In this document: positions 2,158 through 34,309 of the stretch, in pieces
How the letters are laid out: each line of letters begins with the position of its first letter
How positions within the stretch are numbered: the first letter of the stretch is position 1
Assembly: GCA_025698895.1 (NCBI GenBank)
Contig: JAILWO010000001.1
Span: forward strand, 1,771,001 to 1,835,000
Reading direction: 5' to 3'
Source: Rhizobiaceae bacterium
GTDB taxonomy: Bacteria; Pseudomonadota; Alphaproteobacteria; Rhizobiales; Rhizobiaceae
Length of the DNA: 64,000 nucleotides
The notes under the pieces: model-generated
The model's database searches: none
What the model saw: only the letters and a program-made list of their open reading frames with translations
What the model was told of the DNA's origin: nothing
Translations under genes and position numbers: made by a program

Positions 2158-2856
2158 ATGAACTTCCTCGCGCTCTGCCAGCGTGTGGCGTCTGATTCCG
2201 GCACGGTCAGCGGGGAACTCCCGTCGACCGTTGCCGGTCAGACCGGGCGCCTGGGCAAGATCGTCCGCTGGACGAACGACGCCTGGCGCTCGATCCAGCT
2301 CGCCCATTCGCAATGGCTGTGGATGCGGTCCGACTTCTCCGGCCAGACCGTGGCCGGAACCCGGACCTATACCGGCGTCGACATGGGCGTGGCATCCCGG
2401 TTCGGCGACTTCCTGTGCCGCAACGACGCGCGCGAGAACCGCTATTCGATCTACCTCACCGCCACCGGCGTCGCGGACGAGGGGCAGTTGCAGTACCGCG
2501 ATTACGACCATTTCTACACGGTCTTCCAGCGCGGCGTGCAGACACAGAACCCGCCGTCGTACTTCACGATCACGCCCGACGGAAAGCTGGCGCTGCATCC
2601 GATCCCTGACGATGCCTACACGGTCAAGGGTCCCTATCGGAAGGACGTCCAGGACCTGACGGCCGATGGCGACATCCCCGAAATGCCGACGCGCTTCCAC
2701 GACCTGATCGTCGACATCGCGCTCCAGAACTATCTCGACGTCCATGACGAGGCGACGGTCATGGTGCCCCTGCATCGGCTGCGGACGATACCGCGCTTCG
2801 CCGAACTGGAGCGCGACCAGTTGCCCACGATCCGCCTTCCGGGACCGCTCGCCTGA
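2158..2856 (+). CDS. Putative phage head-tail adaptor protein
   Basis: A 232-residue protein starting three bases after the previous stop and overlapping the next gene by one base. The N-terminal helix (NFLALCQRVASDSG), the tract RLGKIVRWTNDAWRSIQLAHSQWLWMRSDF and a C-terminal FHDLIVDIALQNYLDVHDE resemble adaptor or tail-tube proteins that sit between portal and nozzle in podoviruses. I base this on recollection of the family layout and on gene order (capsid, small proteins, adaptor, nozzle). No catalytic residues are expected or seen. Confidence 0.5.
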   Translation: MNFLALCQRVASDSGTVSGELPSTVAGQTGRLGKIVRWTNDAWRSIQLAHSQWLWMRSDFSGQTVAGTRTYTGVDMGVASRFGDFLCRNDARENRYSIYLTATGVADEGQLQYRDYDHFYTVFQRGVQTQNPPSYFTITPDGKLALHPIPDDAYTVKGPYRKDVQDLTADGDIPEMPTRFHDLIVDIALQNYLDVHDEATVMVPLHRLRTIPRFAELERDQLPTIRLPGPLA

Positions 2857-4769
2857 TGCCACAATCGACGTCGACAGTTTTGTTGCGCGGCGGTCTGGAC
2901 CTGGTGACGCCACCCGTGGCGATGGACCCGGGCAAGTGCATCGCCGCGCTCAACTATGAGCCCGAGGCCGACGGCTACCGGCGCATCGGCGGCTATGAGC
3001 GATTCGATGGCCGGCCGAGGCCTTCGGAGGCGGCAACTGATCTTGAAGCCGAGCAGCGTCGCCTTGAAATCGACGAGGTCGACGGCATCGGCGAGGTCCG
3101 CGGCGTCGCGATCTTCAAGGGCGATGTCTACGCCTTCCGCGACCACGAAACGCGCGGCGGCGCCATGTGGAAGGCCAGCGCGGTCGGCTGGCAAGGGCAG
3201 ACGTTCGGAAGCTACATCACGTTCTCGTCCGGCACGGCCGAATATGTGGAGGGCGACGTGCTGGTCGGCGGCACGTCGGGCGCGACCGCGACGATCAACC
3301 GCGTGGTACTGCGCTCCGGCAGCTACAGCGCCGGCGACGCGGCGGGCTACGTGGTCATCAACGACCCTGTCGCGGCCTTCCAGTCGGGCGAGACGGCGAC
3401 CAGCACATCATCGGGTAGCGCCACGCTTTCAGCCGAACCACAACGGGTGAACCTCCATCCGGGCGGGCGCTACAGCTTCGTCGAGCATAATTTTTACGGG
3501 GCGCGAAAGTCCCGCCGCCTCTACTTCGCCAATGGCGCCGGAACCGCTTTCGAGTACAGCGGCGAGTGGCTCGCGCCGATCCTGACCGGCGGCGTCGAGG
3601 GCGACCTGGACGTCGTGACGTTCATCCTCAACCGCGCCGGCGACAACGTTGTGACCCGCGCCGGCGATTTCGTCATCGCGCGCGGCGAATATGATCGGCC
3701 GCGCTTCGTGACCGAGTTCCGCAATCATCTGTTCCTGTCCTTCGACGCGGGATCGGTGCTCCATTCCGGCGTCGCCGAGCCGCTCGATTACCGGGCCATC
3801 GCGGGCGCGGCCGAGATCGCTTTCGGATCGAAGGTGACGGGCATGCTGCCGGGCGTGTCGACGGCGCTGTTCATCCTGGGCGAAAGCCGCGTCGACTTCC
3901 TGGCCGGCAACGATTCATCGGATTTCCAGTTGCTGCCGCTGTCCTCGTCGGCGGGGGCGCTCGCCTACACCCCCCAGATCATGAACCAGACGCCGATCTA
4001 TCTCGACGACGCGGGCCTGCGCAGCGTGTCTTCGACGTCCGCCTTCGGCGATTTCCGCATGGGATCGATATCGCAGATGGTCGAACCCCTTCTGCGGCGC
4101 AAGAGGCGCGAAGGCATCCTTCCGACCGCGTCCATCGTGATGAAGCGCAAGGACCAGTACCGGCTGTTCTTCAACGACGGGACGGGGCTGATCGTCTATT
4201 TCGGACGCAAGAACCCGGAGATCCTCCCGTTCAAACTGCCGATCGTGGTGACCTGCGCCTGCGCCGGTGAACTGACGAAAGGCGGCGGCGAGCGCTACTT
4301 CGTCGGGGCGACCGACGGCTTCGTCTATGAACTGCAGGCCGGCAACTCGTTCGACGGCGCCGAGGTGCCTGCCTTCCTGCGGCTTGCCTGGAATACGATC
4401 GGGGCGCCGCGCCAGCAGAAGCGGTTCCACAAGGCGACCGTCGAGGTCGACGCCGAGGAAGACGTCGAGATCGGCATTGCCTTCGACGTCGACTATCGCA
4501 GGAACGCCAATGCGCATGGCGCGCGCGCCGATGTCGATGTCGATGCAGGAAGCCCTTCCCTTGTCGATACCGATGGCGGCGGCGCCGGGACCGTCCAGGG
4601 CTATGACGATATCGACTGGACGCCGTCGATGCAGGGCCTCGTCGAGGCCTATCTGGACGGCATCGGGACCAACCTGGCCCTGACCCTGATCAGCGAGCAC
4701 ACCACGGAGGCACCGCACACCTTCTCGTCGATGACGATCAACTTCATGCCGCGCAAGATCGTCCGCTAA
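2856..4769 (+). CDS. Putative phage tail nozzle / stabilisation-type structural protein
   Basis: A 637-residue protein. The N-terminus (LLRGGLDLVTPP, NYEPEADGYRRIGGYERFDGRP) is typical of long beta-rich virion proteins that follow the adaptor gene in podoviruses and may correspond to a tail nozzle or DNA-stabilisation protein. Residues about 123-179 repeat the GD-AAG module also present in the protein encoded at 389. The remaining chain has many short beta-strand-like segments, with no signal peptide, membrane segment or enzyme motif. It overlaps both neighbours by one base, as expected in a late operon. The nozzle assignment is inference. Confidence 0.5.
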   Translation: MPQSTSTVLLRGGLDLVTPPVAMDPGKCIAALNYEPEADGYRRIGGYERFDGRPRPSEAATDLEAEQRRLEIDEVDGIGEVRGVAIFKGDVYAFRDHETRGGAMWKASAVGWQGQTFGSYITFSSGTAEYVEGDVLVGGTSGATATINRVVLRSGSYSAGDAAGYVVINDPVAAFQSGETATSTSSGSATLSAEPQRVNLHPGGRYSFVEHNFYGARKSRRLYFANGAGTAFEYSGEWLAPILTGGVEGDLDVVTFILNRAGDNVVTRAGDFVIARGEYDRPRFVTEFRNHLFLSFDAGSVLHSGVAEPLDYRAIAGAAEIAFGSKVTGMLPGVSTALFILGESRVDFLAGNDSSDFQLLPLSSSAGALAYTPQIMNQTPIYLDDAGLRSVSSTSAFGDFRMGSISQMVEPLLRRKRREGILPTASIVMKRKDQYRLFFNDGTGLIVYFGRKNPEILPFKLPIVVTCACAGELTKGGGERYFVGATDGFVYELQAGNSFDGAEVPAFLRLAWNTIGAPRQQKRFHKATVEVDAEEDVEIGIAFDVDYRRNANAHGARADVDVDAGSPSLVDTDGGGAGTVQGYDDIDWTPSMQGLVEAYLDGIGTNLALTLISEHTTEAPHTFSSMTINFMPRKIVR

Positions 4770-5356
4770 TGGCCGTTCTGCAGAACACGGTCCAGCGCCT
4801 CGTGGCGCGGATGGGGGAAATCTACGGCCGCGTGAACACGGACGCCGCGCTGGCGGCCTCGATGGCGACGGCGATCGGATCGGTGGACGAGAAGACCTCG
4901 CTGGACAGCGACGACCTGTTCATGCTGGTCGACAGCGACGATAACGAAGCCAAGAAGGCCAAACTGTCGAGCCTTGTCGCCTCGGTCTATTCGGCGGCGA
5001 GCTACACGCCGGTGATCTCAAACACGACCAACGTCGCCGCCTCGGCCAACATCGCGGCAAGGCGGCTGCGCTTCGGAACCTCGGTGCTCGTCTTCGGCAC
5101 CATCGATCTCGAGGAAACCGACCAGGGCGCGGCGACGGCCTTCAATCTCTCGATCCCGGTGGCGTCGAACTTCGGGGCGGTGACCGACCTTCATGGCTTC
5201 ATCGCGTCGGCCTTCGACAACGGCTTCATCGAGGCAGACACGGCGAACGACAATGCGCGGGTCGCCTTCGGCGGAATGAGCCGCGTCCTGGCGCGCGGCG
5301 GCACGGTGAGCGGGGCGCAGACCCGCCGCTTCTTCTTCGAATATCAGGTCATCTGA
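4769..5356 (+). CDS. Phage tail appendage hypothetical protein
   Basis: A 195-residue protein overlapping the previous gene by one base. It starts with an alpha-helical segment (about 1-45), then an acidic tract LDSDDLFMLVDSDDNEAKK that resembles the attachment region seen in some tail-fibre proteins. A beta-rich C-terminal half ends RRFFFEYQVI. It lies immediately upstream of a tail fibre gene, so a baseplate or fibre-attachment role is plausible. No known family is recognised with confidence. Confidence 0.5.
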   Translation: MAVLQNTVQRLVARMGEIYGRVNTDAALAASMATAIGSVDEKTSLDSDDLFMLVDSDDNEAKKAKLSSLVASVYSAASYTPVISNTTNVAASANIAARRLRFGTSVLVFGTIDLEETDQGAATAFNLSIPVASNFGAVTDLHGFIASAFDNGFIEADTANDNARVAFGGMSRVLARGGTVSGAQTRRFFFEYQVI

Positions 5357-5369
5357 CCGGAGCGACATC

Positions 5370-6596
5370 ATGGCCAATCAGGGCATCTACGAACTCGAAG
5401 ACACATGGAACGACGGCGGCACGACCTGGCACGGGATCAGGCTGACCGTGACCAACAGTGCGTCGGCGTCCGATTCCAAGCTGATCGAACTGCGCATCGG
5501 GACAGCGCCGAAGTTCAGCGTCGACAAGGCCGGCGATCTCACGATTACCAGCGACGACGCGGGTGCGGCGGCGGGGCCGAACCTGACCCTTTATCGCGAC
5601 AGCGCCTCTCCGGCTGCGTCGGATGTCATGGGCAGGATCCGCTTCAGGGGCGAGGACAGCGACGGCAACATCGAGAGCTATTCGGAGATCTATTCCCGCC
5701 TCGACGATCCGACATCGGGATCGGAGGACGCCAGCGTCCTGATCCGCACAGCGGTCGCCGGTACGATGACGACGATGGCGACCTTCGCCCCCGGCGGCAT
5801 CACGCTCAACAGCGTCGTGATCTCGAACTCCAACTCGATCACCGGGGTCAACAACCTGACGGCGAGCGGAACCGTCACGGCCGCCCAAAACTTCGTCAGT
5901 TCGACCACGACTGCTGTCGTGGCGCCAACCGGAGCGGGTGACGTTCGCCTTCGGCCGAACGGCAGTGGATCGACCACCGGGCAGGCGGTCCTCGATTCAA
6001 GCGGCAACCTGTCGCTCAGCGGGGCGCTGACGGCGGGATCGATCACGTCCGGTTTCGGATCGATCGATATCGGATCGTCGACGCTGACGGCGGGCGCCGG
6101 CACGCTTGCCAGCCTGACCATCGGCACCTATTCCGAGACCGGCGCGGGCAACGGCAAGCAGGTCACCGGCAATAGCTACGACTCGTCGCGCAACTCCACC
6201 GGCACGACGTCGCACCTGCGGTTCTTCAACCCGAACAACCAGGTCGGTTCGATCACGACCAATGGCAGCGCGACGGCCTACAACACATCATCCGACGAGC
6301 GGCTCAAGGACAAGACCGGCCACCTGGCCGGCGAGGACGCCCTTGCCATCATCCTTGCCGATCCGGTCTGGACCTTCGACTGGAAGAAGTCCGGGGAGAG
6401 CGCGGTCGGCTGGGGCGCGCAGACATCCTACGGCATATCGCGGGACCTCGCCTCGCCGGGAGAAGGCGAGCCGGGCAACGAGGATTTCATGCCATGGGGC
6501 GTCGATCAGGCCAAGCGCACGCCGTATCTGTGGGCGGCCACGGCCCATCTGGCCGGCAGGCTGGCCGACCTGGAGGCACGCGTCGATGCCCTCTGA
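5370..6596 (+). CDS. Tail fibre protein with C-terminal intramolecular chaperone (peptidase S74-type)
   Basis: A 408-residue fibre protein. Residues about 1-300 are Ser/Thr/Gly-rich with repetitive short beta elements, as in a trimeric shaft. The C-terminus from about residue 308 carries SDERLKDKTG, the hallmark serine-aspartate start of the endosialidase-type S74 chaperone, which folds the trimer and cleaves itself off before the Ser-Asp. WAATAHLAGRLADLEARV supplies the closing coiled-coil helix. The gene follows the late operon order and overlaps the next start by 11 bp. The host-range role is inferred; the S74 domain is recognised directly. Confidence 0.8.
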   Translation: MANQGIYELEDTWNDGGTTWHGIRLTVTNSASASDSKLIELRIGTAPKFSVDKAGDLTITSDDAGAAAGPNLTLYRDSASPAASDVMGRIRFRGEDSDGNIESYSEIYSRLDDPTSGSEDASVLIRTAVAGTMTTMATFAPGGITLNSVVISNSNSITGVNNLTASGTVTAAQNFVSSTTTAVVAPTGAGDVRLRPNGSGSTTGQAVLDSSGNLSLSGALTAGSITSGFGSIDIGSSTLTAGAGTLASLTIGTYSETGAGNGKQVTGNSYDSSRNSTGTTSHLRFFNPNNQVGSITTNGSATAYNTSSDERLKDKTGHLAGEDALAIILADPVWTFDWKKSGESAVGWGAQTSYGISRDLASPGEGEPGNEDFMPWGVDQAKRTPYLWAATAHLAGRLADLEARVDAL

Positions 6597-7422: not shown

Positions 7423-7789
7423 CGGATCGACTTCCACCAGATATCTTCCTCGTCGTCGTCATCGTCGCGACGGGGTGGGAAAAGCCAGTTCCAGATCCTG
7501 CACAGCATCGGGACACTCCCCGGTTTCAGTCGGGGAGTTTAGAAGTCCTCAGGTGGAAGACCGCCGCAGCCTTTAGGCTTTCGCCCTGGACATGCGCTAC
7601 AGCCTCCCCGACCGAAATCGGGAAAAGAACGCCCTCGGCCAAGCCGAGGACGCCAAGCGTGGACCGCGATCCACTTCACCTGAGGGGTTCTAACGCCCCT
7701 GTCCCTTCGGGACGCCGCGAAGACTACTCCTTATGCGGCGTTCCGGCAAATCCGACATCCGGCAGATCGCCGCAGACACGGAGACCCGC
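7423..7789 (+). other. 367-bp gene-free interval dominated by palindromes
   Basis: This is the only gap of more than 300 bases without a convincing gene. Its first ~90 bases show nothing I can assign. From 7515 to 7740 it is almost entirely inverted repeats (see the ncRNA candidate). The last ~50 bases lead into a GGAG ribosome site for the small gene at 7790. Short ORFs here are not supported by codon usage. Confidence 0.7.
7515..7740 (+). ncRNA. Candidate structured RNA or palindromic mobile-element remnant
   Basis: Eight short inverted repeats lie almost head to tail. They are an 8-bp stem 7515-7522/7531-7538, a 4-bp stem 7568-7571/7576-7579, a 5-bp stem 7607-7611/7618-7622, a 7-bp stem 7633-7639/7643-7649, a 5-bp stem 7659-7663/7670-7674, a 4-bp stem 7684-7687/7696-7699 (an alternative to the closing helix), a 5-bp stem 7701-7705/7709-7713 and a 6-bp stem 7713-7718/7735-7740. 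A long-range helix pairs 7547-7559 with 7674-7685 (nine pairs, one bulged base, three pairs), closing a multibranch domain. This is typical of a folded non-coding RNA or of IS200/IS605-type palindromic ends; HEARO/omega-RNA-like RNAs are one family to test. No transposase or nuclease gene is adjacent. Strand is assumed from the operon. Confidence 0.45.
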
Positions 7790-8078: not shown

Positions 8079-9260
8079 ATGGCCCTTCCGCAGATCAACA
8101 AGCCGATCCAGACCCGCGGGCTCTTCAATCCCAGCGGCGCGGCCGGCCGGACCTATGACGAGTGGATGAAGTCCGGCATCGGCGGGCAGATGCCGTCGAT
8201 CGCGCCGAAGCAGGCGGACGACAGTGTCGTCACGGCCCTCAACAAGGTCACGGCGACCGACAATCCGCTCATGCAGGCCGCCAAGACAGAAGGCCTGAAG
8301 ATCGCCAACCGGCGCGGGCTGGGCAATTCCTCGATCGCGGCAGGCGCGGTTCAGGATGCGACCTTGAGGGCAGCGCTTCCGATCGCGCAGCAGGAGGCGC
8401 AGCAGGCCTTCGGCAAGAACCAGGCGGCGCGGGCTTTCGAATACGGGATGGCGATGCAGGATCGCCAGATCGAATCGGCCGAATTCATGCAGTTGCGCGA
8501 TATCGAATCGCGCGAAGGACTTGCGGCCGCACAGCGCGCGCTCGACTTCCGGATGCAGCAGGCGGCCCTTTCGGCGGCCGAACAGCAGCAGTTGAGGGAC
8601 ATCGCCAGCCGGGAAGGCATGGCGGCGGCGGAACGCGAGCTTCAGTTGACCATGCAGGTCAACAGCCTCGACAACGCCACACAGCAGCAGATCAGGGATA
8701 TACGCTCCAGGGAAGGTCTTGCCGCAGCCGAACGTGCTCTCAACCGCGAGATGCAGATCAGGAGCCTGGACGCGGCGGACCAACAGCAGATCAGGGACAT
8801 CGAGTTCCGCGAGGGTGTGGCGGCGGCCGAGCGTGCTTTGCAGGAACTCATGCAGCAGCGCGAGATCAACTACCAGAGCACACAACGCCGGCTGGATCGC
8901 GCGCTTCAGGAGCGGTTGGCGTCCTGGAACCTGAACGCGGCGGACAGGAACGCAGCGGCCCAGCTTCTCTACAACATGGAGACGCTCTACCAGAGCTCGT
9001 TCAACGCCATCATGTCGAACCCGAACATGTCGGCGGAGGACCGGACCGCGCAACTGGCGTCGGCGCGCAACCTGCGCGATCGTCAGATCGACTTCGTCCA
9101 GCAGCTCTACGACGTGCAACTCGAATGGGGCCAGGCTCGGCCGGGCGACGAGGATGATGAGGATGGCGGAACAGGCGGGACCGGGGGAACGCAGACGCCG
9201 GCGCCGACTTCCGGCGAAACCGCGCTTGAGCGGCTTTTGCGCGAATTCCGGGGCGGATGA
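8079..9260 (+). CDS. Internal virion-type protein with four 33-residue coiled-coil repeats
   Basis: A 393-residue, helix-rich, Gln/Ala/Glu-rich protein. Residues 134-265 are four exact-length 33-residue repeats (consensus QQQIRDI-SREGLAAAERAL---MQ--SLD), three hendecads each, predicting a long coiled coil. The C-terminus ends in a Gly/Thr-rich linker (GGTGGTGGTQ) and a short helix. Length, composition and position upstream of other large virion proteins suggest an ejected internal or tail-core protein. It overlaps the next gene by four bases (ATGA). No enzyme motif is seen. Confidence 0.6.
   Translation: MALPQINKPIQTRGLFNPSGAAGRTYDEWMKSGIGGQMPSIAPKQADDSVVTALNKVTATDNPLMQAAKTEGLKIANRRGLGNSSIAAGAVQDATLRAALPIAQQEAQQAFGKNQAARAFEYGMAMQDRQIESAEFMQLRDIESREGLAAAQRALDFRMQQAALSAAEQQQLRDIASREGMAAAERELQLTMQVNSLDNATQQQIRDIRSREGLAAAERALNREMQIRSLDAADQQQIRDIEFREGVAAAERALQELMQQREINYQSTQRRLDRALQERLASWNLNAADRNAAAQLLYNMETLYQSSFNAIMSNPNMSAEDRTAQLASARNLRDRQIDFVQQLYDVQLEWGQARPGDEDDEDGGTGGTGGTQTPAPTSGETALERLLREFRGG
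8478..8873 (+). repeat. Four tandem 99-bp coding repeats
   Basis: Four in-frame 99-bp units encode the 33-residue repeats of the coiled-coil protein. Units begin at residues 134, 167, 200 and 233. Protein identity between units is high (REG-AAAERAL in nearly all) while the DNA has diverged at many third positions. That points to old duplications kept by selection rather than recent slippage. Confidence 0.8.
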
Positions 9261-9754
9261 TCGTGGCGGTTCGAGACGTCAGGTTCGCCGACATACCGGC
9301 GATCGTCGCGCTTTTGCAGGACGGCCATCGACGGTCGATCTACGCGCTCGATCCTCGCGTCGCGGTCGATGTCCGCGAGGTCAAGCGGCTGCTTGTCCAG
9401 GCGATCCAGCGTCACGGCCACACCACGGGCGGCGGCTGCTGGATACAGGTCGCGGAGACGGACGGCAGGGTGACGGGCGTCATCCTGGGCACGCTGGTCA
9501 GGCTCTATGCGATCTTCACGCCGCTGATGGCGACGGACGTGTTCTGGCTGGCGTCCGAGGACGTCCATCCAGCCGATCCGATGAAGCTGATGGCGGGCAT
9601 GATCAAGTGGGCGAAGGCCAGTCCTGACGTGGCGGAAATCCGGTGCGCCACGACCGGGGCGATCGCGTCGGAGAAGAAGACCGGAGTGTTGCTCGAAAGG
9701 CTCGGCATGGAGCCGTTCGGGGAGGTCTGGAAGATGAAGGTGGAAGCGCAATGA
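9257..9754 (+). CDS. GNAT-like phage protein
   Basis: A 165-residue protein beginning VRDVRFADIPAIVALLQDGHRRS, the usual opening of a GNAT N-acetyltransferase fold. A central strand block (GGGCWIQVAETDGRVTGVILGTLVRL) and a C-terminal LLERLGMEPFGEVWKMKVE follow. The acetyl-CoA loop (Q/RxxGxG/A) is not clear, so catalytic activity is doubtful. GNAT-like proteins are known near internal virion genes of T7-like podoviruses (the gp13 position), which fits its place here. It overlaps both neighbours by four bases. Confidence 0.6.
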   Translation: MIVAVRDVRFADIPAIVALLQDGHRRSIYALDPRVAVDVREVKRLLVQAIQRHGHTTGGGCWIQVAETDGRVTGVILGTLVRLYAIFTPLMATDVFWLASEDVHPADPMKLMAGMIKWAKASPDVAEIRCATTGAIASEKKTGVLLERLGMEPFGEVWKMKVEAQ

Positions 9755-14853: not shown

Positions 14854-17800
14854 ATGGCTCTTTTCGACGACCTGATACCGTCCGCGTCGGGCAAGGCCGA
14901 CCGGCTGGGCGCCGGTCCGCGCCCGGCCGTGACGACAGGGATGTTCGACGACCTGATCCCGGCCGATGATGGCTCGGGCCTGGTCGATTCGATCCCCGGC
15001 GGACGGACCGTGGTCGAGACGATGAAGGGCGTGCCGGAAGGGGCCGTCACGATGGGCGGCACGATCCTGAAGGGCGCGGCCGCGCAGCAGAAGGGCGCGC
15101 AGCACAGCGCGGCCGAGCTCGGACGCCAGCAGCTTGCCGTGATGGACAGGATCGATCGGGGCGAACCGGTCCCGGAGACCGAAGACGTCATCGGCTACCA
15201 GCACATGACGCCCGAACAGCGCCGCGAGGCGCGGGCCGAACTGGAACAGGCGCAGGCCGCGTTCGATCCAGGCACAGTCGAGGACTCGTCGCTCTACCGC
15301 AGCGGCCAGGCGGTGCAGGACTATGGCGAAACAATCCTGCCGGCCGAACCGGGTTACGAGGACAGCATCAGCCGCAATATCGGGCGAGGCCTCGGATCGG
15401 TGGCGACCGGCGTTGCCGCTTCGGCCCTGGGCGGACCGGTAGCGGCCGGCACAGCCTTTTCGCTGGCCGGCGCCAGCGAGGCCGTCGACAGGGCGGTGCA
15501 GGCCGGGGCTACCGAAGAACAGATCATCGCGGCGGCCAAGTCCGGCCAGTTCGCCGGCATGACCGATTCCCTGCCCGTGGAGGTCTTGCTCGGCCGCGTG
15601 CCTCTCCCCGGCGGGCAGTTGATCAAGGTGCCGGTCGGCATGATCGGCGACGCATTGCGGGTCGGCCAGAGGATCGGCTTTCAGGCGCTTGTCGAGGGCA
15701 TTCAGGAAGGCGGGCAGGAGTTCATCCAGAACGCCATCCAGCAGACCTATGACGAGGATCAGCCGCTCGTCGAGGGGGTTGCGGAAGGGGCGGGACTTGG
15801 TGCTGCCGTCGGCGGCATTACCGAGGCCCTGTTGACGCCGGCCAGGAGGCGCGGCGGCCGGCCCGCCAGCCAGCAGCAGGCGCCGGGGACCTTCGACGAC
15901 CTCATTCCAGAAGGCGCGCAGCCCGCCGAGGACATCATCGGTGCAGAGACGGAGAAGGGAGACCGGCTTCAGCCTGTTACACCAGAACAGCCGATTGCGC
16001 CGGAGGCCGTTCCAGGCGATACCGAGCGCGCTTCCTCGCCGCGCCTGACGCCGGAAGACCGCGCTTCCCCGATCCCGAACGACCTGATCGACGACGGCAA
16101 GGCGCTGATCGGGCAGACGACGGGGACTGAAGCCGCTCCGGTTCCCGAAAATATCGCCGCTTTGCCACCCGTTGCGCCCGAGGGCGGGCCTTTGCCGGCT
16201 TCCGGTATCCAGCCGGAAATCGCAAACGCCGCTCCTGCGGCTCCTGTGGCCGAAACAGGGGCAATCTCGCCTGATCCGGAATCGGACACTCGCATCGATG
16301 CCGTGCTTCAGAAGGCGCGCCAGTTCAGTGACCCCATTGATGTCGCGATGCGAGCGTCACAGGACGAGGGCCGCACCTATGATGATCTTTCCTCGCTCCG
16401 GGCGGAGGTGAGGCAGGCGGAACGAACCCTGATGCGAAAGTATGGGGTTCGTCGGGTCGACGAACTGGACGACGCACCACTCACCGACGCCGAGCGGAAC
16501 TTCCTGTTTCACGACCCTGCGCCCGTCTCTCGCGAGGAAATTGATTCCCTTATCGCGATCCGCGAGCCGGTCGAGGACTTGAATGAGGCCTCTATCGAGA
16601 TCAGTCGGACGGCCAATCGACTGCCGGATACCGCCGACATCGACGCGATGACCGGGGCAGAACGCAATGCGGTCGCGCGCCTCATCTTCCTCGGCTCTGA
16701 GGTCGAGCGGCTTGGCGGAAATCGCGATGCCGTGCTGATGGATGCGCTCAAGGCGCAGGCTTCCCGCTTCAGCGATCCGCAGGATGCGGAGTTCATGGCG
16801 CGCTCCATCGGTGAGCGCCTGGCGCGATTTGTCGGCACCCGCCCGCCGGCAAGCCCCGAGGCCGCTGCCCTGCCAGCGCCGAGCGCCACCGGCGAAAACG
16901 GGAAGCCGACGCGCAAATCGATCGAGCGCCGCGACATCGACACCGATACCGCCGTCACGGCTTCCGGCCGGTCGGTTCCGGTCCAGTACGCGGTGGTCGA
17001 GGCTTCGTCGCTGGTTCCCTCCCAGAAGGACGAGGGCGGCGCCAATCCGGCCTATCCCGCCGAGATGCAGCCGCGCGACCGCTCCCGCGCGGTCTCCGAA
17101 AGCCAGATCCAGTCGATCGCCAAGAACCTCAATCCGCGCCTGCTCGACAAGAGCCCGCGCGCGTCCGACGGTGCGCCGATCATTTCGGCCGACGGCGTCG
17201 TCGAATCGGGCAACGGCCGCGTCCTGGCAATTCGCCGCGCCTATCAGGCGGGCAATGCCGAGGCCTACCGCCAGCACCTCGCCGATCAGGGCTATCCCGT
17301 CGACGGCATGGATCGCCCCGTGCTCGTCCGCGTCAGGCAGGGCGAACTGTCGCCGGACGAGCGGCAGGCCTTCACCCGCGAGGCCAATGAGCGCGACACG
17401 CTCGCCATGTCGGCGACAGAACAGGCGATGGCGGATGCCGCGGCGATGTCGGACGATCTGGTCTCGCTCTATCGCGGCGGCGATGTCGACCAGGCCGGCA
17501 ACCGCGACTTCGTGCGCGCCTTCATCCGCGACGTGGTCAATCCCAACGACCAGGCCCGTATGATCGGCTCGGATGGGGCTCTTTCGCAGGAAGCCGTCCG
17601 GCGCGTGCAGGCCGGCCTTCTCGGTAAGGCCTACGGCGATCCCGACCTTGTCGCCTCGCTCGTCGAATCGACCGACACCAACATCAAGGCGATCGGCGGG
17701 GCGCTGACCGACGTCGCGGCCGAATGGGCGCAAATGCGAGCGGAGGCCGCGTCGGGCGCGATCAATCCGGAAGTCGACCAGACCAATCGTCTGCTTGAAG

Positions 17801-20800
17801 CGGTCCGGCTCGTGGATCGCGCGCGCCGGGAAGGCCAGAAGCTCGTCGACCTCGTCGGCCAGCGCGACATCTTCTCCGGCCAGGCGATCGATCCGGTCGC
17901 CGAAGCCTTCCTGCGACTGATGTTCCGCAACCAGGTCAGTTGGACCATGCCGGTCGGTCGTGATAAGCTTGCCGACAAGCTGAGGTTCTACGTGACCGAA
18001 GCGAGGAAGACGACGCCGGGCGTCGATCTTCTGGGCCAGGCGCCGGCGTCATCCGGCCAGATACTCGAGGCGATCGGAGACCGTGACCGTGGACAAGAAC
18101 AGCAACAGGAAGGTCTCGCCCTCCGACCGCCTGCCGCTGCAGCTGTTGGCGAAGACGTTCGACCGGATGGCGGCCGAGGAGCCCAGCAAGATCAACGCGG
18201 CCGGGCAGCGCAAGGTGGCGCAGAAGGCGCGCGAGCTGGCGATCAGCCTGCCGGCGAAGTAAGCCAAGCCGGCACAAAGGCTCGCGACAAGGTCGTCGCG
18301 GCTGGTCGGAAGGATGGTATCGAGCATCTGTCCGTCGTCGGTGCCGACGGCAAGGTGGTTTCCGAGGGGGCCGGCAAGGCCAATTTCGTGTCCTTCCCGC
18401 CCGGTCTGGTCGAGAAGTTCCTGACCGAGGGCGCCGATCTTGTCGCTCACCACAATCATCCGGCTGGCACGTCGCTGTCCCGGCCCGACATCAGCTTCCT
18501 GGCCTATCCCGGCCTGACGGCGGTCTGGGCACATGGCCACGAGGGAACCTCCGCCCGCGCGTCGCTTACCAAGGCGGCGCGCGAGAAGGTTTCTCCGGAC
18601 GACAATGGAGTGCGCGCCATCGCCCGCATGACCTCGGCTCGCGCCGGTGCGATCAGGGGCGTTTTGCAGGCGGCCGTCTCCGATCGCGAGATCACGCCGG
18701 CCGAAGCGTCTCTTGCCGATTCGATCGCCAGAAACGTCGCCGCGCACCGCGCCGGCATCATCGACTATGTTGACAACATCCCATGGCACCCCATTCTGAC
18801 GTCTCGAGGTGTCCAGAATGCCATCGAGGACGAGGCCACCAATGCAGCGAAACTCTTCTTCGGCCGAAAAGCCCGAATCCGTGACTATGATCGACCCTCC
18901 GTCCCCGTTCGACACGCGGGAGACGTGGGAATCATATCGGAAGACGCTGCGCGGCCTGCCGGACAGCGACCCGCTCAAGACGACGCTGCTGGCCGAAGCC
19001 AACAAGACGCTGATGGGGATGGCCAGGACCTCCTGACGGCCCTGCGCGAGGAGCCGTTCAGGCTCGACGATCGCCAGGATGCGATGCAAGGCTTCATCGC
19101 TCGAGGCCAGCCGCTCGATCGCGCCATTCGCCTGCCCTTCGCCATCTTCGGCGGCATCGACCGGGAAGGGCAGTGGAAGCCCGGCAAGTATCTCACCGAC
19201 AGCGCGGCCAGGGTCATCACGTCGGCGAAATTCTCGCCCGAAGGTCGATTCTCGTGGATGAACGGCGCGCTGGAAACCGCGCGCGCCGGCCTGATCGACC
19301 GCTACGGGCTCGATCCCGCCTATGTCGACCGTGAGCGCAAGCGCGCGCTCGACGAGCGCCGCACCATGCTCAAGGGCGCCGAAATCCTCAAAACCCTCCA
19401 GGACGGCAAGGTCGGGCCGGAGGAGGCCCGCGTGCTGCAGGCGGTCCTGACCGGCGAGAATGTGGCCGACGCCGACATGAAGCGGCTGGCCGTCCCGATC
19501 CGGCAGGCGATCGACGAGCTGGGCCAGGAAGCGGTTTCGCTGGGGCTCCTGTCACCGGAGGCCTATGAGCGCAACCGCGGCGCCTATCTGCATCGCGTCT
19601 ATGCCCGCCACGAAGCCGAGCAGAACGCCCTGTCGAAGATGGTCGGCAAGATGATGGGACGGTCGCGCAAGAAGATCATCGGCGACCAGTTCAAGGGGCG
19701 CGGCATCTTCCTCGACGTCGGCTTCGATCGCCTGACGAAGGACGATCCGGAGTGGAAGGAAGGCCGTCGAGGCAAGCCCGGCAAGGGCGAGAAGTTCCGC
19801 ATCCTCGATCGCGTCCAGGATGACATGCAGGGCGGCAAGGCCAAGGTCACCGACCGCGTCTTCTGGCCGGCCGACCGCAAGGTGCCGAAGGACTTTGAAG
19901 CCTATCGCGACAGCGGGACGTGGGAAATCCGGGGCGAGCGCGGCGGCAAGGCGGTGCTGTGGCGCGATTACACCAAGGCCGAGCGCGAGAAGATGGGCGA
20001 GATCATGGACGCCCGCTACACGATCGGCAAGACGTTCATGCTGATGGCGCACGACCTCGCGACGGGCCGCTTCTACAAGGACATCGCCGAGAACGAGGAA
20101 TGGGCGCGATCGACCGAACCGGCTACGGCATGGAAGGATGCCGGCGAGGTCAATCGCTACGCGATCGATCCTGCGCTCGAATGGGTCCGGGTGCCCGAGA
20201 CAGCCATTCCCGATTCGGGCGGCAAGAAGCGCTGGGGTGGGCTCGCCGGCAAATGGGTGCGGGCCGAGATATGGCGCGACCTCAACGAGATCGACATCAT
20301 GTCGCGCCCGACGACCTGGCGCACGCTGCTGACGCAGTGGAAGTTGAACAAGACCGCCAGAAGCCCCGTCGTCCACATGAACAACGTCATGTCGAACATG
20401 GTGTTCATGGATCTGGCCGACATCCGCGCGCAGGACCTGGTCGCCGGCATGCGCTCCTACATCAAGGGCGACCGGCATTACGAGGAAGCGGCCGCGAACG
20501 GTGCCTTCGGCTCCGACATGATGAGCCAGGAAATCCGCGACAACGTCCTGAAGCCGATCCTCGACGAGATCACGCGCGACATGCAGGCCGGGACCGCCAA
20601 TTCGTTCCTCGCGCGGGCGAAGATGATGGGCAAGTTCGCCGATCGCCTGTGGACCTGGGCCAAGACGGCCGACCGCAAGATGATCGACGCCTACCGGGCG
20701 GAGGACGAGGTCTTCCGCATGGCGACCTATATGCGCCGCCGGCAGATCGGAGACAGCCCGAAGGATGCAGCCGACTTCGCCCGCCAGCAGTTCCTCGATT

Positions 20801-21672
20801 ACGACATCAGGGCGCCATGGGTGAACGCGGCCCGCAATTCGGTCCTGCCGTTCCTGTCCTACACCTATCGGGCGGCGCCCCTGGTGGCCAAGGCGATCGT
20901 GACCCGGCCGTGGAAGCTCGGCAAGTATTTCGCCGTGGCCTACGCGCTCAACGCGCTGGCCTATGCCTGGGACGACGAGGGCGACGAGGAGAAGGAGCGG
21001 GCCAGCCTTCGCGACGAGGAGCAGGGCTTCACCTGGATCGGTGTGCCGCGCATGATGCGCATGCCGTTCCGCAACGAGGACGGCCTGCCCGTCTTCCTCG
21101 ACATCAGGCGCTGGATACCGGCCGGCGACATTTTCGACACGGGGCAGGGTTCGTCGGCCATTCCCATTCCAGCACCGCTGCAGTTCGGCGGACCCTTGAT
21201 GATCGGGGCGGAGATCGCGCTCAACAAGCAGGGCTTCACCGGCGAAGAGATCACCAACGACCTGACCGATACGTGGTTCGAGAAGGCCGGCAAGATCGGC
21301 GACTATCTCTGGAAGGCATGGCTTCCGTCGGCGGCGTGGGTGCCCGGATCCTGGTATTGGGAGAAGATCGGCAACGCGGCCAAGGGCGCCACGGATGCAT
21401 CGGGCCGGCCCTATGACCTGCCATCGGCCGCAGCGTCGTCGGTCGGCATCAAGCTCAAGCCGCAGGACGTGGAGCAGGGCCTGCACTGGCAGGGCTACGG
21501 CATCCAGAAGGTCGAGCAGGAGTTGAAGGCACAGGCCCGCCGGCTTGCCCGCCAGCGAGAGCGCAACCTGATTTCGAAGGACGAGTTCGAGAAGGGCATG
21601 CGCTCGATCACGACCAAGTTCGAGCGGCTGGAAGATCGTGCCCGAAAGCTACAGGACGCAGCCAGTCGCTAG
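14854..21672 (+). CDS. Giant phage polyvalent protein (DdrB/ParB-like, JAB-like and LPD38-like domains)
   Basis: A 2272-residue protein. Three copies of FDDLIP lie at residues 4-9, 31-36 and 347-352. A Pro/Ala linker covers about 350-480. A DdrB-like ParB-superfamily domain starts near residue 704 (SGRSVPVQY, MQPRDRSR, LLDKSPRASDGAPII, ESGNGRVLAIRRAY). A JAB-like metalloprotease motif HNHP-x5-S-x2-D has His1200, His1202, Ser1209 and Asp1212. The C-terminus resembles large polyvalent domain 38 (SPVVHMNNVMSN, then a hydrophobic helix near 2025). Such proteins are packaged in podovirus heads and injected with the DNA. Two internal stretches (18089-18262, 18842-19036) have stronger coding signal in another frame. 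The frame is open throughout, so I keep one CDS. Confidence 0.75.
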   Translation: MALFDDLIPSASGKADRLGAGPRPAVTTGMFDDLIPADDGSGLVDSIPGGRTVVETMKGVPEGAVTMGGTILKGAAAQQKGAQHSAAELGRQQLAVMDRIDRGEPVPETEDVIGYQHMTPEQRREARAELEQAQAAFDPGTVEDSSLYRSGQAVQDYGETILPAEPGYEDSISRNIGRGLGSVATGVAASALGGPVAAGTAFSLAGASEAVDRAVQAGATEEQIIAAAKSGQFAGMTDSLPVEVLLGRVPLPGGQLIKVPVGMIGDALRVGQRIGFQALVEGIQEGGQEFIQNAIQQTYDEDQPLVEGVAEGAGLGAAVGGITEALLTPARRRGGRPASQQQAPGTFDDLIPEGAQPAEDIIGAETEKGDRLQPVTPEQPIAPEAVPGDTERASSPRLTPEDRASPIPNDLIDDGKALIGQTTGTEAAPVPENIAALPPVAPEGGPLPASGIQPEIANAAPAAPVAETGAISPDPESDTRIDAVLQKARQFSDPIDVAMRASQDEGRTYDDLSSLRAEVRQAERTLMRKYGVRRVDELDDAPLTDAERNFLFHDPAPVSREEIDSLIAIREPVEDLNEASIEISRTANRLPDTADIDAMTGAERNAVARLIFLGSEVERLGGNRDAVLMDALKAQASRFSDPQDAEFMARSIGERLARFVGTRPPASPEAAALPAPSATGENGKPTRKSIERRDIDTDTAVTASGRSVPVQYAVVEASSLVPSQKDEGGANPAYPAEMQPRDRSRAVSESQIQSIAKNLNPRLLDKSPRASDGAPIISADGVVESGNGRVLAIRRAYQAGNAEAYRQHLADQGYPVDGMDRPVLVRVRQGELSPDERQAFTREANERDTLAMSATEQAMADAAAMSDDLVSLYRGGDVDQAGNRDFVRAFIRDVVNPNDQARMIGSDGALSQEAVRRVQAGLLGKAYGDPDLVASLVESTDTNIKAIGGALTDVAAEWAQMRAEAASGAINPEVDQTNRLLEAVRLVDRARREGQKLVDLVGQRDIFSGQAIDPVAEAFLRLMFRNQVSWTMPVGRDKLADKLRFYVTEARKTTPGVDLLGQAPASSGQILEAIGDRDRGQEQQQEGLALRPPAAAAVGEDVRPDGGRGAQQDQRGRAAQGGAEGARAGDQPAGEVSQAGTKARDKVVAAGRKDGIEHLSVVGADGKVVSEGAGKANFVSFPPGLVEKFLTEGADLVAHHNHPAGTSLSRPDISFLAYPGLTAVWAHGHEGTSARASLTKAAREKVSPDDNGVRAIARMTSARAGAIRGVLQAAVSDREITPAEASLADSIARNVAAHRAGIIDYVDNIPWHPILTSRGVQNAIEDEATNAAKLFFGRKARIRDYDRPSVPVRHAGDVGIISEDAARPAGQRPAQDDAAGRSQQDADGDGQDLLTALREEPFRLDDRQDAMQGFIARGQPLDRAIRLPFAIFGGIDREGQWKPGKYLTDSAARVITSAKFSPEGRFSWMNGALETARAGLIDRYGLDPAYVDRERKRALDERRTMLKGAEILKTLQDGKVGPEEARVLQAVLTGENVADADMKRLAVPIRQAIDELGQEAVSLGLLSPEAYERNRGAYLHRVYARHEAEQNALSKMVGKMMGRSRKKIIGDQFKGRGIFLDVGFDRLTKDDPEWKEGRRGKPGKGEKFRILDRVQDDMQGGKAKVTDRVFWPADRKVPKDFEAYRDSGTWEIRGERGGKAVLWRDYTKAEREKMGEIMDARYTIGKTFMLMAHDLATGRFYKDIAENEEWARSTEPATAWKDAGEVNRYAIDPALEWVRVPETAIPDSGGKKRWGGLAGKWVRAEIWRDLNEIDIMSRPTTWRTLLTQWKLNKTARSPVVHMNNVMSNMVFMDLADIRAQDLVAGMRSYIKGDRHYEEAAANGAFGSDMMSQEIRDNVLKPILDEITRDMQAGTANSFLARAKMMGKFADRLWTWAKTADRKMIDAYRAEDEVFRMATYMRRRQIGDSPKDAADFARQQFLDYDIRAPWVNAARNSVLPFLSYTYRAAPLVAKAIVTRPWKLGKYFAVAYALNALAYAWDDEGDEEKERASLRDEEQGFTWIGVPRMMRMPFRNEDGLPVFLDIRRWIPAGDIFDTGQGSSAIPIPAPLQFGGPLMIGAEIALNKQGFTGEEITNDLTDTWFEKAGKIGDYLWKAWLPSAAWVPGSWYWEKIGNAAKGATDASGRPYDLPSAAASSVGIKLKPQDVEQGLHWQGYGIQKVEQELKAQARRLARQRERNLISKDEFEKGMRSITTKFERLEDRARKLQDAASR
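18089..18262 (+). CDS. Candidate nested small gene 1 inside the polyvalent gene
   Basis: A 57-codon ORF in a different frame from the polyvalent gene. It starts at GTG 18089 with GGAG at 18076-18079 and stops at TAA 18260. By hand count all 57 sense codons end in G or C, while the polyvalent frame over the same bases has about 26 of 58. The product starts VDKNSNRKVSPSDRLPLQLL, has FDRMAAEEPSKINAAGQR and ends ELAISLPAK; it is basic and helical. The polyvalent frame here reads as low-complexity Gln/Gly/Ala/Arg, like a shadow. Either this is a true nested gene or the long protein crosses a once separate gene. Function unknown. Confidence 0.5.
   Translation: MDKNSNRKVSPSDRLPLQLLAKTFDRMAAEEPSKINAAGQRKVAQKARELAISLPAK
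18842..19036 (+). CDS. Candidate nested small gene 2 inside the polyvalent gene
   Basis: A 64-codon ORF in the same alternative frame as nested gene 1. ATG 18842 follows GAGG (18832-18835) by six bases; ATG 18887 is a second candidate start. From 18887 to the stop 44 of 49 codons end in G or C, against roughly 27 of 50 in the polyvalent frame. The product contains PFDTRETWESYRKTLRGLP and DPLKTTLLAEANKTLMGMA, a plausible small helical protein. The overlapping polyvalent frame looks like a shadow here too. Function unknown. Confidence 0.45.
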   Translation: MQRNSSSAEKPESVTMIDPPSPFDTRETWESYRKTLRGLPDSDPLKTTLLAEANKTLMGMARTS

Positions 21673-33438: not shown

Positions 33439-33729
33439 ATGGACCACCGGCTCATATTCTTCGCGATCTCGGCCTTCTGGGGCATGGCCATGATCCTCAA
33501 CCTGCTCACCGCCACCCGTATCTGCCATGCCATCGAGCATCGCTCGGGGCGAACCGGCGGTGCGCCCGGCCTGTCCCGCCTCATCCCCGTCGCGATGAAC
33601 CGTGACGTCGCGCAGGACGCGGAGACGCAGGAACTGCGCAGCCAGATGAACAAGCGGCTCCTGATCGTGGTGATCGGCGTTATCGCTTACGGAATATTCC
33701 TGCAGGTCTGGCCCGCGGCCGAAGGCTGA
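33439..33729 (+). CDS. Small inner-membrane hypothetical protein
   Basis: A 96-residue protein starting 3 bp after the MBL gene. Two membrane segments flank a basic polar loop (about residues 4-24 LIFFAISAFWGMAMILNLLTA; about 73-92 LLIVVIGVIAYGIFLQVWP). No family is recognised. Its tight position within the tyrosine-catabolic operon suggests co-expression, perhaps with a membrane-linked accessory role. Confidence 0.6.
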   Translation: MDHRLIFFAISAFWGMAMILNLLTATRICHAIEHRSGRTGGAPGLSRLIPVAMNRDVAQDAETQELRSQMNKRLLIVVIGVIAYGIFLQVWPAAEG

Positions 33730-33754
33730 GCGCGAGCCTGGTCGGGAGGATACG

Positions 33755-34309
33755 ATGGGGCTGGTTGCTCATTTCGCCAAGATGGCGCGCAACAACCGCT
33801 GGTCCAACGACCGGCTCTACCGCGCCGTACTGGCGCTTGCTCCCGGCGAGTTCCATGCGGATCGCGTGAGCTTCTTTCCCTCCATCGCCGCCACGCTCAA
33901 TCACATTCTTGCGGTCGACCGCTACTATCTTGATGCGCTGGAGCAAGGCGGCCTCGGTCCTGCCGCCTTCCACACTTTCGTGGCTTTTGACGATCCGGCC
34001 GCGCTGGCCGCCGCCCAGACCGAATGGGACATGCGCATGATCGCCTTTTGCGACGGCTTGGCGGAGAGCGACATGGATCGCCGTGTCGTCACCGATCGCG
34101 GCCAGGCCGGCAAGTTTCCGGAGCGTGTCGCCGACCTGCTGGCGCATATCTTCCTGCACGACGTCCATCATCGCGGGCAGGTCCACGCCATGCTGTCCGG
34201 CTCGAGCATCAAGCCGCCGCAACTCGACGAGTTCTTCCTCGACTTCGACGAACCGCTGAGACGCGAGGAACTGGCGCGGCTGGGGGATCGCCCTGATGCC
34301 CCGCTATAG
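33755..34309 (+). CDS. DinB-family protein
   Basis: A 184-residue four-helix protein. NHILAVDRYYLDAL (His50) and HIFLHDVHHRGQVHAML (His135-x3-His139) form the DinB metal-binding His triad. DinB-superfamily members include thiol-dependent maleylpyruvate isomerases. In a homogentisate operon without a clear maiA this protein could isomerise maleylacetoacetate or act in thiol-dependent detoxification. It overlaps the next gene by 14 bp. The family call is firm, the substrate is inference. Confidence 0.85.
   Translation: MGLVAHFAKMARNNRWSNDRLYRAVLALAPGEFHADRVSFFPSIAATLNHILAVDRYYLDALEQGGLGPAAFHTFVAFDDPAALAAAQTEWDMRMIAFCDGLAESDMDRRVVTDRGQAGKFPERVADLLAHIFLHDVHHRGQVHAMLSGSSIKPPQLDEFFLDFDEPLRREELARLGDRPDAPL

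Follow-up and report, generated by a model that had tools for sequence, protein, structure and literature searches.

We report that positions 18089 to 18262 of the DNA analysed here, a stretch of 64,000 nucleotides from a Rhizobiaceae bacterium (hereafter the window), very likely constitute a genuine small gene that encodes an independently started, 57-residue helical hairpin and is hidden within a fused, virion-type polyvalent gene, its translation being inferred. At the level of sequence, this nested gene A is real, conserved and unannotated, and its conservation, its frame, its position and the openness of both frames could all be established. That it is translated is very probable and remains an inference in the absence of transcript, ribosome-profiling or peptide data. 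Since the window belongs to a 1.94-Mb contig of a 4.76-Mb genome, the phage concerned is a prophage. The features on which the argument relies are the following.

14854 to 21672, + strand: polyvalent ORF of 2272 codons, with a DdrB-like ParB module, a JAB-like module and further unclassified modules
16963 to 17337, + strand: DdrB-ParB domain (PF18763, E 1.6e-38, residues 704-828)
18076 to 18079, + strand: GGAG, Shine-Dalgarno-like, nine bases before the GTG of nested gene A
18089 to 18262, + strand: nested gene A, 57 codons and a TAA, +1 relative to the polyvalent frame
18271 to 18753, + strand: JAB-like module in the polyvalent frame, where the matches of relatives begin at residues 1140-1147
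18887 to 19036, + strand: nested gene B, 49 codons and a TGA, +1 frame, behind the JAB-like module, without a clear Shine-Dalgarno site

Nested gene A is contained wholly within the polyvalent ORF, on the same strand and in a different frame, which fulfils the criterion for a same-strand nested overlapping gene, and it occupies the linker that joins the DdrB-like module to the JAB-like one. The host gene in turn qualifies as encoding a phage polyvalent protein, as it combines a PF18763 match above the cut-off with a further module common to other genes, its C-terminal modules being unclassified. In a query with the whole protein, similarity to single DdrB genes stops at residue 1077 (L028 and L030) or 1095 (L029). 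The second module, which matched no family in a Pfam search, is presumed to be JAB-like from its HNHP..S..D motif; among 296 further genomes from the same family, 5 contain relatives of it, and a plasmid search with polyvalent residues 1000-1300 returned no match. Among ten neighbouring proteins, four have PHROGs matches, three of them tail- or lysis-like (2158-6593) and one endolysin-like (21872), while none of those encoded between 8079 and 14850 matched PHROGs. In nine of 14 loci checked (L022, L029, L030, L036, L068, L069, L089, L098 and L109), the gene downstream of DdrB has about 800 to 990 codons and overlaps the DdrB gene through an ATGA; DdrB-type modules therefore also occur as coupled separate genes.

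The nested frame first attracts attention by its composition. According to the initial annotation, all 57 sense codons of the alternative frame end in G or C, the polyvalent frame falls to about 45 percent over the same stretch, and its product there is a low-complexity Gln/Gly/Ala/Arg sequence. Our recount agrees in every respect, with 57/57 codons ending in G or C in the nested frame, 25/57 (44%) in the polyvalent frame, which is indeed rich in Gln, Gly, Ala and Arg, and 34/57 in the third frame. By comparison, 1842 of the 2272 codons of the whole polyvalent ORF (81%) end in G or C and, in 57-codon segments elsewhere in the gene, G/C at third positions (GC3) averages 0.82 in the polyvalent frame and 0.69 in the +1 frame. 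The 57/57 count is beyond chance, with a probability of 6e-6 at a GC3 of 0.81 and of 2e-5 at a GC3 of 0.83, and stop avoidance in the giant frame may be part of the reason for it. Third positions in the +1 frame are first positions of the main frame, so that composition alone could mimic a codon bias. Such a fortuitous origin would be compatible with the 131 ORFs in the +1 frame and 4 in the +2 frame (at least 40 codons, GC3 excess of at least 0.2) found by scanning polyvalent ORFs with a minimum length of 1200 codons, no more than 32 of the hits being located at the site of nested gene A. Many of these GC3-excess ORFs come from AT-richer relatives such as L054, L055 and L062, where GC3 alone consequently proves little. 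In the window, on the contrary, the next +1 peak reaches only 0.88 versus 1.00, and it overlaps nested gene B. This low value, together with the amino-acid conservation of the nested frame revealed by the profiles and pairwise z scores described below, leaves compositional chance with almost no credit.

The nested ORF starts with GTG and specifies 57 residues before its stop. Both the GGAG site and the clean stop previously claimed for it are present, the former at 18076-18079 and the latter as a TAA after the 57 codons. As far as sequence evidence alone can tell, nested gene A thus meets the requirement of an own start codon and ribosome-binding site, the exact start being uncertain because a second GTG is found at 18083, three bases past the GGAG. 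No promoter-like site was detected by a promoter scan at this start, and RNA folding gave no unusually stable structure there. Among relatives, a Shine-Dalgarno-like match of at least 4 bases precedes some possible start in 25 of 30 nested ORFs versus 187 of 519 control ORFs from the same genes. An earlier tally gave 24/32 versus 123/785, with starts that had been selected partly on the Shine-Dalgarno signal itself. These start signals bear on whether the nested peptide could instead be an alternative C-terminus of the DdrB module, produced by programmed +1 frameshifting without an independent start. Such a mechanism would fit with the constant +1 position of the nested frame in 38 loci and with the 31 +1 codons that are open upstream of the nested GTG in the window. 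It is nevertheless considered unlikely, as a nested-frame stop lies just one to five codons upstream of the start in 9 of 32 relatives, which leaves little room to shift, and as start codons with Shine-Dalgarno-like sites are enriched (slippery sites being outside this evidence). Most likely, ribosomes would initiate at the GTG behind the GGAG, independently of the translation of the giant ORF.

Relatives of nested gene A could not be recovered by pairwise searches with its 57 residues, which yielded none in viral or genome contigs and none convincing in 150 other genomes. Four weak matches were dismissed as chance, being located out of frame inside a gene that we take to be ObgE-like (L002), antisense to a larger ORF (L003), inside a long repeat protein (L004), or between, and antisense to, larger ORFs (L005). 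Viral and prophage relatives were supplied by searches with the DdrB module, resulting in 93 loci (window included) in which both alternative frames were scanned around the module end. Every ORF listed for a GC3 excess above 0.05 near the module end was in the +1 frame, and a +1 ORF directly behind the DdrB module was hand-picked as nested gene A in 38 of the 93 loci. Repeats (L044, L081, L105 and L115) were left out, as were loci with no or an unconvincing +1 ORF, including L022, L023, L025, L027, L079, L083, L084, L091, L100, L104 and L106-L108. The condition of the giant frame was already visible when the loci were selected, which possibly biases the choice towards open frames, and 30 of the 38 loci were used for the stop-count and for the pairwise z and start-signal analyses. 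No such +1 ORF accompanies single DdrB genes, e.g. L028-L030, L072 and L075-L078. As a separate observation, L023, L025 and L027 carry, at a distance of 112 to 187 bases beyond the DdrB match, +1 ORFs with similar-looking peptides, and a profile built on these three loci only found no convincing further member.

Profiles were then built with the tested group omitted (groups set by hand) and used to score the complete set of six-frame segments from each locus. The nested ORF was top-ranked in 36 of the 38 loci, with an E value below 0.01 in 31 of them; L053 and L098 failed the test. For the window, the E value was 1.3e-7, and still 5.8e-5 when L037-L040 were omitted as well. In line with these values, pairwise comparison with its four closest relatives (L037-L040) gave z scores of 5.6-10.4 for the nested frame versus -1.0 to 1.0 for the polyvalent and -1.6 to 0.8 for the third frame. 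At greater distance the results are mixed. The nested frame scored higher than the polyvalent one against L045 (z 6.0, polyvalent 0.9), L042 (7.3 and 5.6), L041 (2.5 and 1.5) and L054 (1.9 and -1.5). Against L021, the z scores were 2.0 for the nested and 4.7 for the polyvalent frame; this locus, whose module is 57% identical, has a +1 ORF at the same junction with a peptide that is 37.5% identical over 32 residues (E 0.013). No pairwise nested-frame similarity to the window was seen for L049, L070 and L102. In comparisons inside close groups, high scores are obtained for each of the three frames, with the nested one on top (mean z 20.2 in L037-L040, the other frames 7.7 and 7.8), and across twelve divergent loci the mean z was 2.9 for the nested, 0.7 for the polyvalent and 0.8 for the third frame. 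It had been anticipated that a conserved polyvalent protein combined with a broken small ORF in homologs would refute the nested gene. The reverse is seen with the four closest relatives, the polyvalent frame being also similar in L021 and L042. The proposal, namely that a small gene was overprinted here or that the giant protein reads through a once separate gene, is supported by this conservation.

These comparisons also bear on a more trivial origin, in which a pair of mutually compensating indels, whether read errors or recent mutations, would have shifted a stretch of the polyvalent gene to +1. The same local GC3 picture would be expected from such a pair of events, and sequencing indels had been put forward as a possible refutation. 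They are very unlikely, because an identical frame jump, with the same arrangement in the same frame, is found at the identical place in separately assembled contigs, and we regard indels of either kind as hardly conceivable.

The distribution of nested gene A is limited. A viral scan with the nested sequences of the window and L037-L040 returned just two contigs, those of L037 and L038. In a second collection, comprising 63 loci from cellular genomes and searched with a profile built without the window from the other 37 sequences, six loci had their top segment in the +1 frame and at most 50 bases away from where the module should end (L160, L168, L173, L174, L217 and L220), and three of these had an E value below 0.05 (L173, 0.0029; L174, 0.012; L220, 0.00012), L220 being the same sequence as the training locus L098. 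The remaining 57 of the 63 gave no top +1 match at the predicted place, and many of these are single DdrB genes or modules of less than 41% identity. This collection partly repeats the 93 loci (the overlap was not systematised), and a few of its members are truncated near the module end. As judged from these scans, nested gene A is present in part of these genes, not in all.

Protein-level selection on the nested frame is supported by the profiles and the pairwise z scores, the ratio dN/dS being clear in only two of four groups. This ratio was computed by the Nei-Gojobori method for each frame separately, which is not designed for overlapping frames. It was 0.20-0.58 in the nested versus 1.25-2.70 in the polyvalent frame for L037-L040 (six pairs), and 0.02-0.09 versus 1.55-3.05 for L055, L057 and L062 (three pairs). 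The two frames were not clearly different in the L058 group (15 pairs; nested 0.00-0.83, giant 0.35-1.00; one pair showed no synonymous change in the giant frame) nor in the L101 group (six pairs; nested 0.62-0.98, giant 0.42-1.14).

The giant frame itself is kept open. Over the nested ORFs of 30 loci, it contains 0 stops versus 15.8 expected, the minimum being 6 in 2000 shuffles in which synonymous codons were permuted within each nested ORF; with the codon usage of the DdrB module itself, 60.3 stops would be expected. In the window taken by itself, 0.00 giant-frame stops are expected from the shuffle and 1.39 from the module codon usage. The shuffle is uninformative there, since no codon of nested gene A in the window ends in T, the sole third base able to create a giant-frame stop. 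The absence of stops is an obstacle to the idea that the giant ORF does not yield one protein, the small ORF and the flanking modules being translated separately. This idea gains some plausibility from the existence of the modules as separate coupled genes in other phages. Besides the 0 versus 15.8 stops, it is opposed by the available part of a report on the podovirus JC1, in which a 4515-residue DarB-like protein was detected in virions with 51 unique peptides (PMC9144972), indicating that giant proteins of such kind are made. Separate translation is thus quite improbable. The dual use that we favour would have the small frame specify a conserved protein and the giant frame provide merely an open linker. 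A giant frame that needs to be no more than an open linker would account for the low-complexity sequence and the lowered GC3 at this place.

Nested gene B offers a view of how such an arrangement may arise. Its GC3 is 0.90 versus 0.53 in the polyvalent frame, and its family is marked by an IDPP...W motif. Members nested in the +1 frame are found in the window, L012, L015, L021, L041, L042, L043 and L152 (Ruegeria phage 45A6), with weak profile matches in L021 (E 0.012) and L042 (0.063); the profile was trained on four members, that of the window among them. In three prophages (L013, L014 and L016), the family is free-standing and follows a separate gene that encodes the JAB-like module. Its start overlaps, as ATGA, the stop of the separate JAB-like gene in L013 and L014, and lies six bases past the JAB-like module gene in L016. 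The JAB-like gene of L014 encodes a Mu-F-type head morphogenesis protein and adjoins portal and terminase genes. A scan of viral contigs added 12 further loci, some near-identical, with the family B gene nested in eight (L223-L227 and L229-L231), outside long ORFs in three (L222, L228 and L221, the last being the L013 sequence) and unresolved in one.

The occurrence of family B in both states suggests swallowing through gene fusion rather than birth by overprinting. Likely, the small genes would once have been located between separate, translationally coupled virion genes and would have been swallowed upon fusion in a frame that was open across them. As the overlap in L013 and L014 is +2 and the nested state +1, we infer that a change of frame was needed at fusion. 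The suggestion that the giant protein reads through a once separate gene fits nested gene B, which has free-standing homologs in other prophages, and lacks such support for nested gene A, for which no free-standing homolog was found. A fusion origin remains an inference, with direct support for nested gene B only.

A third nested family (C) is located behind nested gene A in eight loci, and 25 viral loci were found by scan. All 21 distinct sequences that were examined have it in +1 position within a stop-free giant frame, with 0 giant-frame stops versus 16.0 expected in 16 loci (minimum of 6 in 1000 shuffles). Eight phage records, corresponding to six phages, carry the family, among them Pseudomonas phage Skulduggery (positions 33577-33963 of its record) and Parlo, where its frame is +1. 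For six of these records of cultured phages (Pseudomonas, Serratia, Klebsiella and Ruegeria phages, and two Vibrio phages), annotation was inspected and the giant gene is the sole feature at this place; the conserved nested ORF measures 120 to 131 codons in these six. Several other +1 ORFs were observed in passing. The giant DarB-like gene of BcepIL02 (L155, 4609-18612) contains one of 124 codons at 9245-9616 (GC3 0.81 versus 0.45) and another of 54 codons at 7502-7663. Both Serratia phage Parlo (L150, 922-1164) and Klebsiella phage ZX1 (L151, 1246-1545) have a further +1 ORF upstream of family C, and the two peptides look similar by eye. Further +1 ORFs with a GC3 above that of the giant frame are located past the end of the DdrB match, by 4156 bases in L045, by 3652 in L046 and by 1141 to 1405 in L037-L039; two of them follow strong Shine-Dalgarno-like sites.

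The predicted products give few clues to function. With a 29-member alignment, AlphaFold2 predicts a two-helix hairpin for nested gene A (mean pLDDT 83), and an all-helical structure is predicted for family C (pLDDT 79). At an E value of 0.01, nothing was matched by the 29 nested A members in PHROGs and Pfam nor by 8 nested C members in PHROGs; Pfam gave DUF2079 for one of the latter (E 0.0079). NCBIfam, searched with ten proteins, returned only OrgB for one nested C protein, at 16.8 bits versus a cut-off of 278. Fold searches of nested A against viral and PDB libraries, and of nested C against the viral library, found no match at an E value of 0.001 or better. One free-standing B protein matched phrog_1173 (E 0.0044). 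An assignment of nested gene B as a tail assembly chaperone (Phage_tail_APC, PF16778) was not retained, as it scored 16.4 bits versus a cut-off of 26.6 (E 0.0085), and can serve as a lead only. From the position of the gene and this sub-threshold chaperone match, we can offer no more than a tentative guess, itself rather doubtful, that the small product is a dedicated partner of the neighbouring modules, i.e. an assembly or folding factor or a temporary inhibitor acting before or during delivery to the host.

Same-strand nested genes are known in phages, and annotation tends to drop them. Nested gene A belongs to this known class of overlapping genes; what is unusual is the recurrent setting and the existence of a sister family that is also found as a separate gene. 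The same-strand out-of-frame nested genes described in the part of PMC8227390 available to us are alike in that a small ORF is wholly contained within a larger one in another frame; the present case differs from them by recurrent linker families within one class of giant genes, one family being both nested and free-standing. The host gene is one of the phage polyvalent proteins of Iyer et al. 2017 (PMC5512222), with the fusion of a DdrB-ParB domain to further modules. As far as that article was accessible, its main text contains neither 'overlap' nor 'translational coupling', uses 'nested' twice, for a hairpin structure, and gives no description of genes hidden in polyvalent linkers. In phage P1, the annotated ORF iddB is also inside the ddrB gene (NC_005856 annotation). 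It is not an equivalent precedent, being antisense and within the DdrB module. Giant ORFs are likewise found in Skulduggery, Parlo and BcepIL02, in the form of DarB-like antirestriction genes (PMC6606913). The giant ORF sits between virion and lysis genes in Skulduggery and BcepIL02, and in all three phages the DarB-like gene is annotated as one gene with nothing inside. Skulduggery and Parlo are absent from the 34 phage records retrieved at an E value of 1e-20 or better with the DdrB module of L058 as query. Among the matches listed in the literature search, no title or beginning of an abstract concerned genes nested in polyvalent or DarB-like genes.

Taken together, our results suggest, with slightly better than even chances in our estimation, that podovirus-like phages systematically conceal, in the linkers of their giant polyvalent virion genes, small +1 genes of no fewer than three families (A, B and C), which were left by the fusion of coupled genes, whose products are dedicated partners of the adjoining modules and which form an unannotated layer of the proteome. 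The coexistence of free-standing and swallowed members in family B makes the fusion origin of overlapping genes directly testable, and the prediction of nested genes can be tested cheaply in laboratory phages. If translated, these nested genes would add proteins at fixed places beside known anti-host modules.
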